From Oscillospiraceae bacterium (GTDB lineage: Bacteria; Bacillota; Clostridia; Oscillospirales; Ruminococcaceae): a stretch of DNA of 64,000 nt. Shown here piece after piece: positions 46,094 through 54,138 of this stretch. The notes under the pieces were generated by a model. The model worked only from the letters and a program-made list of their open reading frames with translations. It did no database searches and had not been told where the DNA came from. Both the position numbers and the translations under genes were made by a program. The stretch lies in assembly GCA_017468865.1 (NCBI GenBank), contig JAFUHM010000048.1, forward strand, positions 1-64,000, written 5' to 3'. Numbering within the stretch: the stretch's first letter is position 1; each line of letters starts with the position of its first letter.

Positions 46094-46274
46094 CAAGACC
46101 CATCATGTTTATGTTGGGTGCGTTTTTGCGTGTTTGCCGCACGTTTCGATTTTTGTGTCAAAAGAATACTGATGCGGTAGACTTTTAACGATCAGATGTG
46201 TACTACAATTATGCATCTAATAACGTTCGGATATGTCCACGAGATCTGTCCGAAAGATCAAGGAGGAAAATAAA
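46094..46274 (+). promoter_or_regulatory. Long 5' leader of pflB
   Basis: About 180 bases of untranslated leader. It contains a GCGTGTTTGCCGCACG hairpin near 46127 and a TTCGGA/TCCGAA pair (46226-46253) just ahead of AAGGAGG. No known riboswitch was recognised; it may control expression of this high-level gene. Confidence 0.5.
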
Positions 46275-48368
46275 ATGAAGCAGATGCCACAGGAATGGGA
46301 AGGCTTCGTCGGCGGTCACTGGACCGACGAGATCAACGTCAGAGACTTCATACAGAAGAACTATACTCCCTATGAGGGCGATGAGAGCTTCCTCGCAGGT
46401 CCCACAGACGCAACCAAGAAGCTCTGGGACGATGTAATGGAGCTTGCAAAGCAGGAAAGAGAAGCAGGCGGTGTCCTTGATATGGACAACAACGTTGTTT
46501 CCTCTCTTACCTCTCATGCAGCAGGCTACATCGAGAAGGATCTCGAGAAGATAGTAGGTCTTCAGACAGACAAGCCTTTTAAGCGTTCTTTCATGCCTTA
46601 CGGCGGCCTCAGAATGGCTGAGAATGCCCTCGAGATGAACGGCCGTACTCCCGATCCCCTCATGCACAAGATATTCAGCGAGTACAGAAAGACCCATAAC
46701 GCAGGCGTTTTTGATGTATATACCCCTGAGATGAGAGCTGCAAGAACATCTCACATACTCACAGGTCTTCCCGATGCTTACGGCAGAGGCCGTATCATAG
46801 GCGACTACAGAAGAGTGGCACTTTACGGCGTTGACAGACTTATCAAGGACAAGCAGGAGCAGAAGGCTTTCTATACCTGCCCCATGACCGATGATAAGAT
46901 TCGTGCAAGAGAAGAGATCGCTGAGCAGATCAGAGCACTTGAGAACCTCAAGAAGATGGCTGAGATCTACGGCTGCGACATCTCCAAGCCCGCTGTTACA
47001 GCACAGGAAGCTGTTCAGGCTGTATACTTCGGCTACCTCGGTGCCGTTAAGGATCAGAACGGTGCGGCTATGTCCCTCGGACGCACTTCCACATTCCTCG
47101 ATATTTATTTTGAGAGAGATTTCAAGCTCGGCAGACTTACCGAGACAGAAGCTCAGGAGATCATAGACCACTTCATCATGAAGCTCCGTCTTGTCCGTTT
47201 CGCAAGAACTCCCGAATACAACTCTCTCTTCTCCGGTGACCCCCAGTGGGTAACTGAGTCTCTCGGCGGTATCGGTATCGACGGCAGACCCATGGTAACA
47301 AAGACTTCCTTCCGTTACCTCCACACCCTTGAGAACCTCGGCACTTCTCCCGAGCCCAACCTGACCGTGCTCTGGTCTCCCAGACTTCCCGACGGCTGGA
47401 AGAGATACTGTGCTAAGATCTCCATCAACACATCTTCCATCCAGTATGAGAACGATGAGCTGATGAGAGTTACACACGGCGATGACTATGCTATCGCTTG
47501 CTGCGTATCCTCCATGAGAGTCGGCAAGGAGATGCAGTTCTTCGGCGCAAGAGCAAACCTCGCTAAGTGCCTGCTCTACGCTATAAACGGCGGCGTTGAT
47601 GAGATCAGCGGTGTACAGGTAGCTCCCAAGTACAGACCTATCACAAGCGAGTACCTCGATTACGATGAGGTAATGGAGAAGTACGATGACATGATGAGCT
47701 GGCTTGCTGAGCTGTATGTAAATACACTCAACATCATCCACTATATGCATGACAAGTACTGCTATGAGTCACTCCAGATGGCTCTCCATGACAGAGAGGT
47801 AAGAAGATACTTCGCAACAGGTATTGCAGGTATCTCCGTTGTGGCTGACTCCCTCTCCGCTATTAAGTACGCTAAGGTTAAGCCTATCCGCAAGGATATC
47901 GAAGTTAAGGACAAGAAGGGCAATGTTCTCTACACTGCCAAGGATGTTGTCGTTGACTACGAGATCGAGGGTGACTTCCCCAAGTACGGCAATGATGACG
48001 ACCGTGTTGACGAGATCGCTCAGATGATCCTCAACAAGTTCATGGACAAGATCCGTCAGCAGCATACTTACAGAAACGGCTTCCCCACTACTTCCATTCT
48101 TACCATCACATCCAACGTTGTATACGGCAAGAAGACAGGTACCACACCTGACGGACGTAAGCAGGGCGTGCCTCTGGCTCCCGGTGCTAACCCCATGCAC
48201 GGCAGAGATACTCACGGTGCATCCGCATCCCTCTCTTCCGTATCCAAGCTCCAGTTCTCCAACGCTCAGGACGGTATTTCCAATACCTTCTCCATCATCC
48301 CCGATGCTCTCGGCAAGGATGGCGGCGTATTTGTCGGAGATCTCGACCTTGACGCACTGAAGAAGTAA
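46275..48368 (+). CDS. pflB: Pyruvate formate-lyase catalytic subunit lacking the glycyl-radical domain
   Basis: A 697-residue PflB with the Cys-Cys pair in [16 protein letters not shown] (about Cys409-Cys410), [14 protein letters not shown], and [28 protein letters not shown]. The ending [20 protein letters not shown] stops (TAA) exactly where normal PflB (about 750 residues) continues into its glycyl-radical domain. That domain is encoded by the next gene in a different frame, 68 bases downstream. The enzyme converts pyruvate and CoA to acetyl-CoA and formate in anaerobic fermentation. AAGGAGG fixes the ATG at 46275. The codon choice is strongly biased, suggesting very high expression. Confidence 0.92.
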
Positions 48369-48386
48369 AAACAATGACTTTCCCGT

Positions 48387-48408
48387 CACACCCGTCCACG
48401 GGTGTGAT
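48387..48408 (+). other. Perfect hairpin between the two pfl genes
   Basis: TCACACCCGT (48387-48396), loop CC, ACGGGTGTGA (48399-48408). There is no T tract. It may set the mRNA ratio or stabilise the upstream message. Confidence 0.7.
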
Positions 48409-48436
48409 GCGGGAGTATGCGAAAGGAGTAATCGTA

Positions 48437-48676
48437 ATGGCTAATTCACAGCAGATAGATAACCTCGTTGGTCTTCTCGATGGCTATTCCGTAAAGGGCG
48501 GTCATCACCTCAACGTTAATGTATTCAACCGTGAGACACTTCTCGATGCACAGAAGCATCCCGAGAACTATCCTCAGCTCACCATCAGAGTTTCCGGTTA
48601 TGCGGTTAACTTCATCAAGCTCACCAAGGAGCAGCAGGATGACGTTATCGCAAGAACCTTCCATGCTTCTCTGTAA
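48437..48676 (+). CDS. Separate glycyl-radical subunit of pyruvate formate-lyase
   Basis: A 79-residue protein equal to the C-terminal domain of Pfl[61 protein letters not shown] and [10 protein letters not shown]. The radical glycine is Gly54 in RVSGYAV. E. coli YfiD/GrcA carries a similar domain, but only as a repair part for an intact PflB; here the neighbouring PflB has no such domain, so this protein must supply it. AAAGGAG lies 8 bases before the ATG, giving independent translation. It is in a different frame from pflB. Confidence 0.92.
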
Positions 48677-48679
48677 GAC

Positions 48680-49429
48680 ATGACGGGGTTCATACATTCA
48701 ACTGAATCCTTTGGTACAGTCGACGGACCGGGTATCCGGTTCGTCGTCTTTTTCCAGGGATGTCCGATGCGCTGCCTTTACTGCCACAATCCCGATACAT
48801 GGACGGTACACTCCGCAAAGGAGCCTGTGGGCACGGAAATGACCGTGGATGAGATACTGGCTATGTATGACGGCGTGAAGGAGTTCTGCAGCGGCGGTAT
48901 CACCTGCACCGGCGGCGAGCCCATGATGCAGCCTGCGTTTCTGACGGAGCTGTTTGAGCGTGCCAAGGAAAAGGGGATACATACCTGTCTTGACACTTCG
49001 GGCGTGACCTTCAACCCCGACAATACGGCGGTGTTCGACAGGCTCATGAAGTCAACGGATCTGGTCATGCTTGACATCAAGCATATAGATGATGAGGAGC
49101 ATAAGAAGCTCACGGGTCACACCAATAAGAATATACTTGCCTTCGCAAGGTATCTCTCGGACATGGGCAAGACTCTGTGGGTGCGTCATGTGACGGTGCC
49201 CGGCATCACCTATAATGATGACTATCTGTACAAGCTGGGGCTGTTCCTGTCGGAACTCAAGTCCTTAAAGGCACTTGACGTGCTCAAGTATCACGACATG
49301 GGCAAAGTCAAGTATGAAAATCTGGGGATGGAGTATCCCCTCGGAGATACGCCTCCCCTTACCACGGAAGAGGCAAAGCACGCCAAGGACGTTATCATGC
49401 AGGGCATAAAGGACGGACTTAACAGATAA
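48680..49429 (+). CDS. pflA: Pyruvate formate-lyase activating enzyme
   Basis: A 249-residue radical-SAM enzyme: FGTVDGPGIRFVVFFQGCPM leads into the cluster motif CPMRCLYC, then TCTGGEPMMQP and LVMLDIKHID. It installs the glycyl radical on the PFL radical domain, here presumably on the separate 79-residue protein. It starts 3 bases after the previous stop with no strong ribosome site, so translation is probably coupled. Confidence 0.95.
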   Translation: MTGFIHSTESFGTVDGPGIRFVVFFQGCPMRCLYCHNPDTWTVHSAKEPVGTEMTVDEILAMYDGVKEFCSGGITCTGGEPMMQPAFLTELFERAKEKGIHTCLDTSGVTFNPDNTAVFDRLMKSTDLVMLDIKHIDDEEHKKLTGHTNKNILAFARYLSDMGKTLWVRHVTVPGITYNDDYLYKLGLFLSELKSLKALDVLKYHDMGKVKYENLGMEYPLGDTPPLTTEEAKHAKDVIMQGIKDGLNR

Positions 49430-49466: not shown

Positions 49467-50384
49467 TTATAAAGATGCGGGCGGAAGATACTGCTTCTGA
49501 CGTTCAAGGCGCATCTTTATCAGCAGGATAAAGCTTTTCGGCGCAGTCACTTTTATCATGGGGCCGAAGGAAAGTATCCGTATCAGAAGCTCTGTGCGGT
49601 CGCTGTGTTCATATCTGAGGATAACGTGATAATGGGACTCATCGAGCCGCTCCACTTCCTTCTCGAAATGGGCAAAGTGCATGAGGACACGTTCGAGAGC
49701 TTTCCTTGTGTCGAAGAGGTCAAATTCTACTGTTTCGTATTCCTGTTCGGAAGGCGATAATGACACATTTCCCTCATAGACCGAACACTGTGTGATGCGG
49801 CCGATGTTCACTGTCACGGTCGAGGTGGAGCTGTCGCCCATGATGCGGAATTTATCGTCCTTTTCGGAATACTCGATGACCTTCGGCACCATCACGGTGT
49901 TCCTGATATGGCCGTGCCTGTTTCTGACTGACAGCTTCAGGGGCAGCGAGTTTTCCGCCGCATGGAGTATCATGTGGAAAAATCTGATGTATGTCTCATC
50001 GGTGAAGTCATCACCGTCTGCGTACTTATCGAATACGCAGACGTCCTCATCGGTGAACAGCGGCTCCACATCATCCAGCCATGAGGGAGTATCGTCGGTG
50101 AACAGGCGTATCCGAGGATCGAGGTATACCGACTTTATCCACCGTTTCTGGAGCGTGGTGAGGGGCATGGCGGGGGCGTGTTCAAGGGGAGTGGTGCCGT
50201 CCTTGTACAGAAGCTGCCACTGCTGATCCTTCAGGGCTGTTTCGATGGTGAGTATGCTCTCGTCAAATGCCGACAGGCTGACGGCTTCCCTGAGCTGACG
50301 GTCGGTGATGCCGCCGTTCACGGCGGATGAGAGTATCTTTGCGACCGCATTGTAGTAGGCGCTGTATAATTCGCTGAATAACAT
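49467..50384 (-). CDS. WYL-domain protein (second of a pair)
   Basis: A 305-residue protein resembling WYL-type transcription regulators: a helical N-terminus, the WYL-like middle (about 75-210) with IKSVYLDPRIRLF, and a C-terminal WCX-type region from about 225 (FDLFDTRKALERVLMHFAHFEKEVERL). The canonical W-Y-L triad is not conserved in obvious form. Such proteins often sense nucleic acids or nucleotides and regulate stress or defence genes. The start at 50384 follows GGAGGT. It begins 16 bases after the first WYL gene. Confidence 0.68.
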   Translation of the reverse strand: MLFSELYSAYYNAVAKILSSAVNGGITDRQLREAVSLSAFDESILTIETALKDQQWQLLYKDGTTPLEHAPAMPLTTLQKRWIKSVYLDPRIRLFTDDTPSWLDDVEPLFTDEDVCVFDKYADGDDFTDETYIRFFHMILHAAENSLPLKLSVRNRHGHIRNTVMVPKVIEYSEKDDKFRIMGDSSTSTVTVNIGRITQCSVYEGNVSLSPSEQEYETVEFDLFDTRKALERVLMHFAHFEKEVERLDESHYHVILRYEHSDRTELLIRILSFGPMIKVTAPKSFILLIKMRLERQKQYLPPASL

Positions 50385-50400
50385 CTCATACCTCCTGCGG

Positions 50401-51621
50401 TCAGACGTCATCGGAGTACATACGGTACATCATGTCTATGTCGTCAAGAAAGCGCTTTTCCGCTGTCTTGTCGGAGATATGTATCTCCTTTATCCTGCAA
50501 ATGAAGGTGCGCAGCCACGGGACAAGCTCGGTGACGTTGTATACATCTGCGGAGAACTTAGCGGTGTTCCTGTCGATGAGTTCCACGGCGCCGCACCGCT
50601 TCTCACGAAAGAGCCTTTGAAGGATGTGCTGTTCGTCGTCGTCAAAATGCACGGTCATATCTATATGCTCTATCCTGTCGGGTGAAAAGCCCTCGGTGCT
50701 TATCCCCCACATATGCTGTCGTGCGTTGCGGTACAGTTCACGGTATCGGGGCAGATCGGGGCATTTTGCGGCTTTTTCGACCGATACCGCCTTATCGGTG
50801 CGAAATGACCGTATCATGTGCCGGACAGGGTCATATACCATGAGATACTGCCGTCCGTTCTGGGCACTTATCATCAGCTGCAGGGGCACGAAAAGCTCGG
50901 GAGCGGACTTGCCGTTCTCGTGACGGATGGTCACGAAACTTCCGTCGTGCAGGGCGTCGAGAAAGGAATAGATGATCTCGCTGTCCATGGCGGCAGTGAT
51001 GTAGTGGTGCTTGAATGTGAATATGCTCTCATGGGGCGGCAGCTTGTCGAGCAGGGTGGAGCCTATCACTCCGCAGGGGGATATCTCCGTGAACAGGTCA
51101 AGGATGCAGGCAGGGGGGAGAGGGACATCTTCCGCCCTGCTGTAAACGACCGTCCTGCCCTGCTTTTGCATGGTGATGAGCCCTTCTTCCGCATATTCCT
51201 TCAGCTTCTTCCTGACGGTGGAGACATCAAAGGTGCGGGGCTCATCAAAGCCCGAAAGGGTGTCGTCGATCCTCTCGCATATCTGCGAGACGGTGAGGGA
51301 CACGGAGGGGTCATGGAGGATGTCGAAAATGATGAAGTGGAGGGTGATGTCACCGTCGGTAAAGCTCTTTGCCTTCCATGCCCTGAAGAAGGGATTGTGT
51401 GCTCTTGTCCTGCTGTCAACGGAGATATACACCGTCTTTGAATCGGCTGTCCTTCGGAACTGCCTATAGTCTGAAAGGTATGATTCTATGCGGCGGCGTT
51501 CGTCATCGTAGGAACGGCTGCTCACCTTGCTGTAATCATCTCTGCTTTTAAAGCCGTAGATGTAGAATTCCTGCATGAACCTGCGTATCAGCGAGAAATT
51601 CTTGATAAGCTCAGAGTACAT
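50401..51621 (-). CDS. WYL-domain regulator with winged-helix N-terminus
   Basis: A 406-residue protein. The N-terminal half holds a winged helix (about 100-185: SLTVSQICERIDDTLSG, FDVSTVRKKLKEYAEEGLIT). The WYL domain (about 225-310) contains IRHENGKSAPELFVPLQLMI and RQYLMVYDPVRHMIRSFRTD, and a C-terminal WCX-type region follows. It probably acts as a ligand-responsive regulator of its own operon (inference). GAGG precedes the ATG at 51621; a GTG three codons earlier is the alternative. It lies 27 bases after the GTPase-nuclease gene. Confidence 0.8.
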   Translation of the reverse strand: MYSELIKNFSLIRRFMQEFYIYGFKSRDDYSKVSSRSYDDERRRIESYLSDYRQFRRTADSKTVYISVDSRTRAHNPFFRAWKAKSFTDGDITLHFIIFDILHDPSVSLTVSQICERIDDTLSGFDEPRTFDVSTVRKKLKEYAEEGLITMQKQGRTVVYSRAEDVPLPPACILDLFTEISPCGVIGSTLLDKLPPHESIFTFKHHYITAAMDSEIIYSFLDALHDGSFVTIRHENGKSAPELFVPLQLMISAQNGRQYLMVYDPVRHMIRSFRTDKAVSVEKAAKCPDLPRYRELYRNARQHMWGISTEGFSPDRIEHIDMTVHFDDDEQHILQRLFREKRCGAVELIDRNTAKFSADVYNVTELVPWLRTFICRIKEIHISDKTAEKRFLDDIDMMYRMYSDDV

Positions 51622-51648
51622 TGGATACACCTCATTTGTACAGCCCTG

Positions 51649-54138
51649 TCAGCGGCTGTCGGATATGAGTTCTCTTATGGCGTTCTCGACCTGCTTTACT
51701 TCTTCGTAGAATTTACCTGCGGGCACACGCAGAGCACCGTTGCCGAGTATGATGAGCTGTTCGGCATAGTCGGAGGTGGCTACCCTGATGCGCCTTGCCC
51801 CCTTGATGTCATGGGTGGTGCGCTCGATATACATATCGGCTGTTTCCGCTTCCTTTGTGTATACGACGGTGATGCCGCTCTCCTGCTCGATCTCCCGTGT
51901 GCCGCCCTTTATCTTGTAGGCATCGAACACGAGTATGGTCTGACACCCCTTGAAGCCCGCAAAGTTGGCGAGGATGTCCGTAAGGCGCTTCCTTGCGTGA
52001 TCGAGGGATGTACGGGCGAGATCTCTCAGTTCATCCCATGCAAAGATGATGTTGTACCCGTCAACAAGGAGATAGTCCGGGCCTGTGCTTACGGGCGCAG
52101 GCTTTACACGCTTCACAGGGATGTCGTCACGGCGCATTGCGCTCCTTTTGGGGCGGTCTATCTTTCCGTAGGTGCGCTCGAATATCGCCATAAGCTCATC
52201 GTCACTGTAAAGCCTTGCCTTAAACTGTGCGATGCGTGCAGGGGTGATCTCGTCGGACGGCTCCTCTGCCTGCCTGATGGCTGTGTGCATATGTGACGGG
52301 GCTTCGTCCCACCTTATGACTGCCGCAGCACCCTTGATGCAGAAGATGCTGTCGGGTGAGTTGGCGGTATCAGCCAAGGGATCGTAGTTTGCCTGAGCGA
52401 TGATGTCTGTCGGGTCGGATACGGGGAAGTATCCGCAGAAGTCGAGCTGGAGCCTGCCGGTGCCGCCTGTATATGATGCGACTTCGGTATGGTAGCCGTT
52501 TATCCCGGCGGCAGGCACCCTGCCCCTTATGACCGCAGTGTCTCCGTCTATTTCGGGGGAAGCTGTCGCTCCCATGAGATCAAGGTCGGTCATGGCACGC
52601 CCCATGGAGGACAGGGGCAGTTCGAGGGCGTATTCGTAGCAGGGTTCAAGGAGGATGCTTTCCGCCTGCATCAGAGCCTGACGCACTGCCCTGCGTGCAG
52701 CCTGCCTTAGATCGCCGCCCTCGGTATGCTTGACGTGGATGCGGCCGCCCGTCAGTATGATATGCACATCGGTGAGGGGTGAACCTGTCAGCACACCGTA
52801 ATGGACTTCGTTTTCGAGGACGGAGATGATGCTTTTCTGCCGTGCCGTGGAAAGCAGATCTTCGGGACATTCGCTGCTGACCGTGATGCCGCTGCCCCGT
52901 GGTGCGGCCTCGAGCCTCACCACCGCTTCCCCGTAGTGTCTGAGAGGTTCGTAGTGTCCGTAGCCCGTGACGCTGCCTCTGATAGTCTCAAGATAGCGGA
53001 TGTGCCTTTGCCCGAATGAGACTTCACCGCCGAACTTTTCACGGTAGATCGTACTTATCACATCAAGCTCCATATCCCCCATGACGCTTATGGAGACCTT
53101 CCCGTCTGCGGTGGGCGAAAGGGTGGGGATATCAGTCTCGACGGCTTTCATCCGCTCGTAGAGGGTATGTTCATCGCAGTCGGCGGTGACGACGTAGCTT
53201 ATCAGGGGGATGAGGGGATCTCTCCTGTCGGGCTCTGCGCCCATGCCGTCACCTGGGCGCAGCTTATCCGTGACGAAGGCGGCGCACTGTCCTGCGCAAA
53301 CTTCACCTGCCTGCTCGTACTTCTCGCCCGAGTAGATGCGCAGTTCGTTGACCTTGATGCCGTCTGTTTCGTCCTTGACACGCAGGGTTCCACCCGTGAC
53401 CTTGATGTGCGCAAGAGTGTTCTTTCCGTCCGAGGTGAGCTTGAACACCTTTGCGGCAAATTCACTGCCGTATGTCCTCACGGGGGCAAACCTGTCTATC
53501 ATGGAGATAAGCTCGGCGATGCCCTCGGAGCGCAGTGCGCTTCCCCACATGACGGGGAATATGTCCCTTTTTGCGATGGCGGCTGTCACATCCTCATCGG
53601 AAAGCGTGCCGTCCTCGTATTTCTCAAACAGGCTCTCATCGGCAAAGGCACAGTTTTCATATATGTCACCGGACAGGTCTGCCGCCCTGCCCCCCGTGAA
53701 GTCATTTAAGACAGCGGCGAGCCGCTCTCTGTCTATGCCCTGAAGGTCGGTCTTGTTGACGAACAGGAATACGGGTATCTTATCCTTTTCAAGGAGCTTC
53801 CACAGTGTCCTGGTATGGCTCTGTATGCCGTCCGAGGCACTTATGAGGAGGATGCACATATCCATGACGCTTATGCACTGCCTTGCATGGGAGGCAAAAT
53901 CCGCATGGCCCGGGGTGTCGAGCAGCGTCACACAGAGCTTGTCTGTCCTGAATACCGCCTGATGAGAGAAGACGGTTATCCCCCGAGACTTCTCTATGCT
54001 TGAGTTGTCAAGATAGGCATTCCCCGAATCGACACGTCCCTTTTTGCGTATACTTCCCGCCGCAAACAGGAGTTCCTCGGCAAGCGTGGTCTTGCCCGCA
54101 TCGACGTGGGCTGCAAGTCCTATCACGATATTGTTCAT
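51649..54138 (-). CDS. TetM/EF-G-like ribosomal GTPase fused to a YacP/Rae1-type NYN nuclease
   Basis: An 829-residue protein. Residues 1-650 are a translational GTPase of the ribosome-protection type: AAHVDAGKTTLAEELL (G1), SIEKSRGITVFS (switch I), LLDTPGHADF (G3), LFVNKTDLQGI (G4), then EF-G-like domains II, III, IV and V (RAMTDLDLMGATASPEIDGD in IV/V). A basic linker (RPKRSAMRRDDIPVKRVKPA) leads to residues 687-829, a YacP/Rae1-like domain: YLLVDGYNIIFAWDEL, ILVFDAYKIKGGTRE, TKEAETADMYIE, RVATSDYAEQLIILGNGA. Its metal-binding Asp residues are conserved. Rae1 cuts mRNA in the ribosomal A site, so this chain joins a ribosome-clearing GTPase to an A-site nuclease. Drug resistance cannot be claimed. 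It heads an operon with two WYL genes. RBS AAAGGA. Confidence 0.88.
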   Translation of the reverse strand: MNNIVIGLAAHVDAGKTTLAEELLFAAGSIRKKGRVDSGNAYLDNSSIEKSRGITVFSHQAVFRTDKLCVTLLDTPGHADFASHARQCISVMDMCILLISASDGIQSHTRTLWKLLEKDKIPVFLFVNKTDLQGIDRERLAAVLNDFTGGRAADLSGDIYENCAFADESLFEKYEDGTLSDEDVTAAIAKRDIFPVMWGSALRSEGIAELISMIDRFAPVRTYGSEFAAKVFKLTSDGKNTLAHIKVTGGTLRVKDETDGIKVNELRIYSGEKYEQAGEVCAGQCAAFVTDKLRPGDGMGAEPDRRDPLIPLISYVVTADCDEHTLYERMKAVETDIPTLSPTADGKVSISVMGDMELDVISTIYREKFGGEVSFGQRHIRYLETIRGSVTGYGHYEPLRHYGEAVVRLEAAPRGSGITVSSECPEDLLSTARQKSIISVLENEVHYGVLTGSPLTDVHIILTGGRIHVKHTEGGDLRQAARRAVRQALMQAESILLEPCYEYALELPLSSMGRAMTDLDLMGATASPEIDGDTAVIRGRVPAAGINGYHTEVASYTGGTGRLQLDFCGYFPVSDPTDIIAQANYDPLADTANSPDSIFCIKGAAAVIRWDEAPSHMHTAIRQAEEPSDEITPARIAQFKARLYSDDELMAIFERTYGKIDRPKRSAMRRDDIPVKRVKPAPVSTGPDYLLVDGYNIIFAWDELRDLARTSLDHARKRLTDILANFAGFKGCQTILVFDAYKIKGGTREIEQESGITVVYTKEAETADMYIERTTHDIKGARRIRVATSDYAEQLIILGNGALRVPAGKFYEEVKQVENAIRELISDSR

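Follow-up and report, generated by a model that had tools for sequence, protein, structure and literature searches.

A fusion of an EF-G/Tet-like GTPase with a Rae1-type nuclease domain in Clostridia, a candidate ribosome-targeted mRNA endonuclease that appears to replace stand-alone Rae1

Rae1 is an endonuclease of the ribosomal A site, and its access to that site may rise when ribosomes stall (PMC6613710, PMC12320835). Translational GTPases of the EF2 family work by displacing ribosome-bound ligands (PMC4342817). The domain combination of the protein described here is not new, since Atkinson (BMC Genomics 2015, PMC4342817) described it as Tet plus YacP: a YacP-like NYN RNase domain had been gained by the Tet proteins of ten Clostridiales species, and it was proposed that the ability of these fusions to act as rRNA RNases, and their role in resistance, be tested. 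Beyond that study we found no paper on the fusion in the literature searched, which covered the Rae1 literature in part. Our protein is a member of the Atkinson set, with the same domain order and from the same bacterial group. That work filed the fusions under Tet and suggested antibiotic resistance via RNase activity, whereas in our analysis the GTPase belongs to a clade of its own, apart from the tetracycline protectors. What we add is this placement, the breadth of the fusion, and its near-exclusive replacement of stand-alone Rae1, which is best read as displacement.

The window, by which we mean the whole 64,000-nucleotide stretch analysed, comes from a gut-type bacterium and carries the fusion gene (P0001) at 51649..54138, as the first-pass annotation had reported while leaving the strand unstated. 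It is a single uninterrupted open reading frame of 829 aa plus stop on the minus strand (54138..51649), as are all the parts described below. Residues 1-574 (52417..54138) are an EF-G/Tet-like translational GTPase with Pfam matches to GTP_EFTU (residues 4-219, E 3e-44), EFG_IV (380-493, 1e-14), and EFG_C (496-574, 8e-13). They contain G1 AHVDAGKTT, G2 RGIT, G3 DTPGH, and G4 NKTD as well as domains II-V, and so bear the marks of the EF2 family, namely G1-G4, DTPGH, and domains IV and V. In an alignment with 33 homologues that share 39-47% identity with the window protein, G1-G4 and the histidine of DTPGH show little or no variation. The tip of domain IV reads KHTEGGDL (residues 470-477, 52708..52731), the family signature being KHTxGGDF. 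The GTPase is followed by a C-terminal extension that is conserved in the fusion alignment (residues 575-620, SIFC...VIRWDEAPSHMH, 52279..52416) and at which relatives without an NYN domain stop. Next comes a linker (residues 621-689, 52072..52278), delimited from the alignment and the AlphaFold model and including the conserved helix DDELMAIFERTYG. The YacP/Rae1-type NYN nuclease domain occupies residues 690-826 (51661..52071), as judged from Pfam PF05991, alignment to 5MQ8/5MQ9, and conservation among the full-length fusions that we extracted (n=118).

The call of a GTPase with a C-terminal YacP NYN domain, made at first from the letters alone, is borne out by Pfam and by structure prediction. 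NYN_YacP (PF05991) matches residues 690-826 with an E value of 1.3e-46 and 159.1 bits against a cut-off of 24.6, and the motifs LLVDGYN, VFDAY, ETADMYI, and ATSDYAEQ are all present as listed in that annotation. In an AlphaFold model with 33 homologues as input, the GTPase, domain IV/V, and NYN parts are all folded (mean pLDDT 79). The C-terminus forms an alpha/beta domain in which most NYN blocks have a pLDDT of 79-92 and two blocks 55-61, while the mutual placement of the domains is unsure because the pTM is 0.49. A prediction of the NYN domain alone from a single sequence had a pLDDT of 46 and was left out of the evidence. Foldseek returned EF-G as the top matches. By sequence, residues 4-573 are nearest to TetO and TetM among solved structures, and residues 688-823 to B. 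subtilis YacP (5MQ8/5MQ9).

Collinear GTPase-NYN fusions are found in all 40 homologous Clostridia loci, in addition to the window, so that the fusion is neither a chance join nor an assembly join. A scan of GTDB genomes gave at least 589 stretches that encode a relative, and nearly all of the best 80 of these match over the full length; the hosts of these 80 include Oscillospiraceae, Lachnospiraceae, Ruminococcus, Intestinimonas, Flavonifractor, Fusibacter, and others. The fusion is thus widespread, with relatives in hundreds of Clostridia.

The nuclease domain is complete in comparison with B. subtilis Rae1/YacP (5MQ8/5MQ9). Its conserved residues in the window protein include D693, N696, D739, D768, E772, and D790, and the Rae1 residues D7, N10, D53, D81, E85, and D104 are all retained. 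Across the family, D7, N10, D53, D81, and D104 are kept in 118/118 fusions and E85 in 117/118. The two proteins have all conserved acids in common and each occurs in one copy per genome; they differ in that Rae1 stands alone with about 170 aa, while the fused domain forms the C-terminal portion of a protein of 829 aa encoded at unrelated loci. In a phylogenetic tree of the NYN domain, which is based on few columns, the fused and stand-alone domains are separated by a single branch (SH-aLRT 96), a topology compatible with one fusion event.

TetM and TetO share the GTPase and the domain II-V layout with the fusion and are its best full-length sequence match. This match to residues 4-573 would suit protection of the ribosome against tetracycline by a protein that has gained an RNase step, which is the published suggestion (PMC4342817) and is also implied by NCBI, where fused and NYN-less relatives are named as TetM/TetW/TetO/TetS family. 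We nonetheless consider a function of this kind quite unlikely. The domain IV tip, which dislodges tetracycline in TetM and TetO, reads YYSPVSTPADF in all 22 ribosomal protection proteins (RPPs) compared, and it is replaced in the fusions by the conserved KHTxGGDF: K-H-T-x-G-G-D is found in 117/118 fusions and in 20/20 NYN-less relatives. The C-terminal extension also differs. In the fusion family it is conserved after domain V and ends ...VFCxHGAGFxVKWDxVxxYMH. Homology of this extension to the Tet C-terminal tail was considered and rejected, as the two are alike in the last few residues only and the profile comparison ends ahead of the extension. The window protein falls under all NCBIfam Tet cut-offs (tet_protect, M_W, Q, M), with 319 bits against 775 for tet_protect and, as another example, 224 against 1100.

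A maximum-likelihood tree of the GTPase, made by a quick search with long branches flagged by the program and with RPPs of the TetO/W/M kind only, places the fused and NYN-less proteins in one clade (SH-aLRT 99) apart from the RPPs (100) and EF-G (99). EF-G and EF-G-like factors have the five-domain fold in common with the fusion, but the tip of EF-G is YHEVDSSEMAF, and the fusion adds the C-terminal extension and the nuclease and scores under the EF-G cut-offs. By the features tested, that is, the tip motif, the C-terminal extension, the NCBIfam cut-offs, and the separate clade, the GTPase is not a protection protein of the TetM/TetO type. The label of ribosome-protection GTPase given in the first-pass annotation finds no support in the strict sense on the same four features, and its caution that a tetracycline role is not implied was justified. 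Also speaking against tetracycline protection, no common leader ORF or attenuator was found upstream of the 41 fusions, and terminator-like hairpins occur in 12/41 at scattered distances. The distribution described below is likewise that of a single-copy replacement of a chromosomal gene and not that of mobile resistance.

The NYN-less relatives are about 645-726 aa long and end at the conserved extension, and 18 of them cluster together in the GTPase tree. Two others (L167, L168), from contigs in viral collections, nest within the fused clade and have about 50 extra residues inserted between domains II and III; their position suggests that the nuclease may have been lost after transfer. NCBI labels as TetM/TetW/TetO/TetS-family tetracycline resistance both a protein of NYN-less length on a large plasmid of Ligilactobacillus salivarius (L254, 6001-7920) and a fused protein of Agathobacter rectalis (L255, 7980-10781). 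This label is probably wrong for such relatives. If so, some "tetracycline resistance" proteins of common gut bacteria such as Agathobacter rectalis are suggested to be translation-linked housekeeping factors, which matters for surveys of resistance genes.

The first-pass annotation had raised the question of whether a stand-alone YacP exists elsewhere in the same genome, and we found a single YacP domain in this genome, that of the fusion. The same pattern extends to relatives. In the order, YacP occurs in 101/295 genomes surveyed, and apart from a few fragments and split frames it always lies in long fused frames. Among 181 genomes examined across the class, 98 have the fused form, 78 the stand-alone form, and 5 are unclear; one genome (G565) has fused and stand-alone YacP together. 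A survey of the phylum gave 18 fused genomes and 145 other YacP genomes with an overlap of 0 against 8.7 expected, where the P values of co-occurrence overstate independence and are indicative only because the surveyed genomes are related.

Gene order points in the same direction. In G467, G541, and G598, stand-alone yacP is the next gene after rlmB and is followed by a sigH-like gene, whereas G317, G668, and G777, which have the fusion, lack yacP at this place and have sigH next after rlmB. In this comparison rlmB was identified by TIGR00186, and sigH and mrnC were recognised by eye from their sequences. The window gene itself is outside the rlmB-sigH slot, and the rlmB of its genome is on another contig. 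On these comparative grounds the pattern is best read as gene displacement of stand-alone Rae1 by the fusion, which suggests that the fusion does the job of Rae1.

We propose that the fusion is a ribosome-targeted mRNA endonuclease, in which a Rae1 carried permanently on its own translational GTPase has replaced the stand-alone protein and cuts mRNA in the A site. We regard this as probable, though by no means secure. The first-pass annotation had already put forward a protein that enters the A site and cuts the message, and this is the best-supported reading of the sequences given the retained Rae1 acids, the near mutual exclusivity of the two forms, and the displacement seen in synteny. The EF-G/Tet-like part in its GTP form would dock at the factor site of a ribosome with an empty or stalled A site, and the KHTxGGDF tip of domain IV would be placed in the decoding centre. 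GTP hydrolysis, with release or rearrangement of domain IV, would then give the tethered NYN domain access to the A-site codon. The cut would start decay of the message and leave a ribosome on truncated mRNA for rescue. Domain IV and the NYN domain cannot share the A site at once, so the cut should follow the release or rearrangement of domain IV; that a sequential step has to be assumed counts against the proposal. We infer ribosome binding by the fusion, the order of events, the signal, the substrates, and the target ribosomes.

Translational GTPases can act on immature ribosomal subunits. An alternative would accordingly have the NYN domain cut structural RNA (rRNA or tRNA) on the ribosome, in maturation or quality control, with the GTPase as an assembly or recognition module. 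A role in rRNA and tRNA maturation was the first one proposed for NYN/YacP proteins, in work cited in PMC4342817. We think this unlikely, as Rae1, the characterised member of this exact family, cuts A-site mRNA (PMC6613710, PMC12320835) and as about two thirds of the sampled genomes of the order are without YacP, which argues against an essential maturation step.

Returning to A-site mRNA cleavage, a natural and widespread fusion to a GTPase of a type that enters the A site, replacing a separate gene, points to GTP-controlled delivery. More tentatively, and with the odds in our judgment somewhat short of even, the KHTxGGDF GTPase subfamily, partly mislabelled as tetracycline resistance, may have evolved to deliver or license Rae1 at stalled A sites, and the fusion would have made this delivery obligatory in many Clostridia. 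An NYN-less GTPase (matches of at least 540 bits) is found in 14/52 genomes with stand-alone YacP and in 4/28 genomes without any YacP. The direction of this co-occurrence is as expected for partners acting in trans, but the association is not significant: a Fisher test with 16/52 was not significant, and 14/52 is weaker still. This lack of significance weakens the view that Rae1 is a constant partner of the GTPase. In the phylum-wide survey, 3/3 genomes with an NYN-less GTPase have stand-alone YacP. If the proposal is true, a GTP-controlled, ribosome-associated mRNA endonuclease would to our knowledge be a new class of enzyme. The fusion also offers a one-protein system for testing how Rae1 locates stalled ribosomes and enters their A site.

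The window copy is unusual within the family in its GTPase. It is the most diverged of the 118, with changes at 23/169 highly conserved columns against a family median of 2, and the changed positions include three in the switch II helix (E84, E86, and R87); the NYN domain in contrast has no change at 29 conserved columns. In the window lineage the GTPase may thus be modified or weakened while full constraint persists on the nuclease, and an altered GTPase would count against the proposal for this copy. The same difference between the two parts would be expected if the GTPase of this lineage served only to anchor the protein on the ribosome and had no working cycle, and the NYN domain acted as an ordinary Rae1. 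We hold this to be improbable, since the window copy retains G1-G4, the DTPGH histidine, and K-H-T-E-G-G-D, and since the GTPase is strongly conserved across the fusion family.

The surroundings of the gene bear on a further possibility, an anti-phage or toxin-like factor whose mRNA cleavage would shut down translation. RelE-type toxins use A-site mRNA cleavage (PMC12320835), and weakly WYL-like genes lie nearby. Such a role is very improbable for the fusion, since no neighbour genes are shared across the 41 fusion loci, PADLOC matches around the window gene are at noise level only, and the distribution is that of a single-copy gene replacing a chromosomal housekeeping gene. The first two of these results also leave the defence factor named in the first-pass annotation without backing. 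The weakly WYL-like pair, 49467-50411 and 50401-51630 (both minus strand), consists of overlapping genes on the same strand as the fusion and 18 bases downstream of it, with weak matches to the WYL domain, and it does not recur beside other fusions. Rfam gave no match near the window gene.

Carriage of the fusion by phages was considered and rejected. Two records named "Bacteriophage sp." (L252, MT835563.1; L253, MT835514.1) carry fusions but look like bacterial scaffolds, because a citrate transporter is encoded in one of them, and addA and addB together with a glutamyl-type tRNA synthetase in the other. The IMG/VR matches with a KHT GTPase are without the NYN domain, and two out of three begin at the end of a contig; the other matches are ordinary genes for RPPs or EF-G.

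We also rejected the idea that the fusion was driven by a loss of trans-translation. Neither SmpB nor tmRNA was found above cut-off in the window genome (G000, 97.8% complete), whereas SmpB is present in 53/53 relatives tested, and the absence is either an assembly gap or a real loss.

Elsewhere in the window, a pyruvate-formate-lyase-like ORF of 711 aa with the start of a glycine-radical domain lies at 46233-48368 (plus strand). It is followed by a separate ORF of 100 aa (48374-48676, plus strand) that is the C-terminal glycine-radical part, and then by the activating enzyme (48680-49429). The enzyme is thus encoded in two pieces, by either a natural split or a frameshift.
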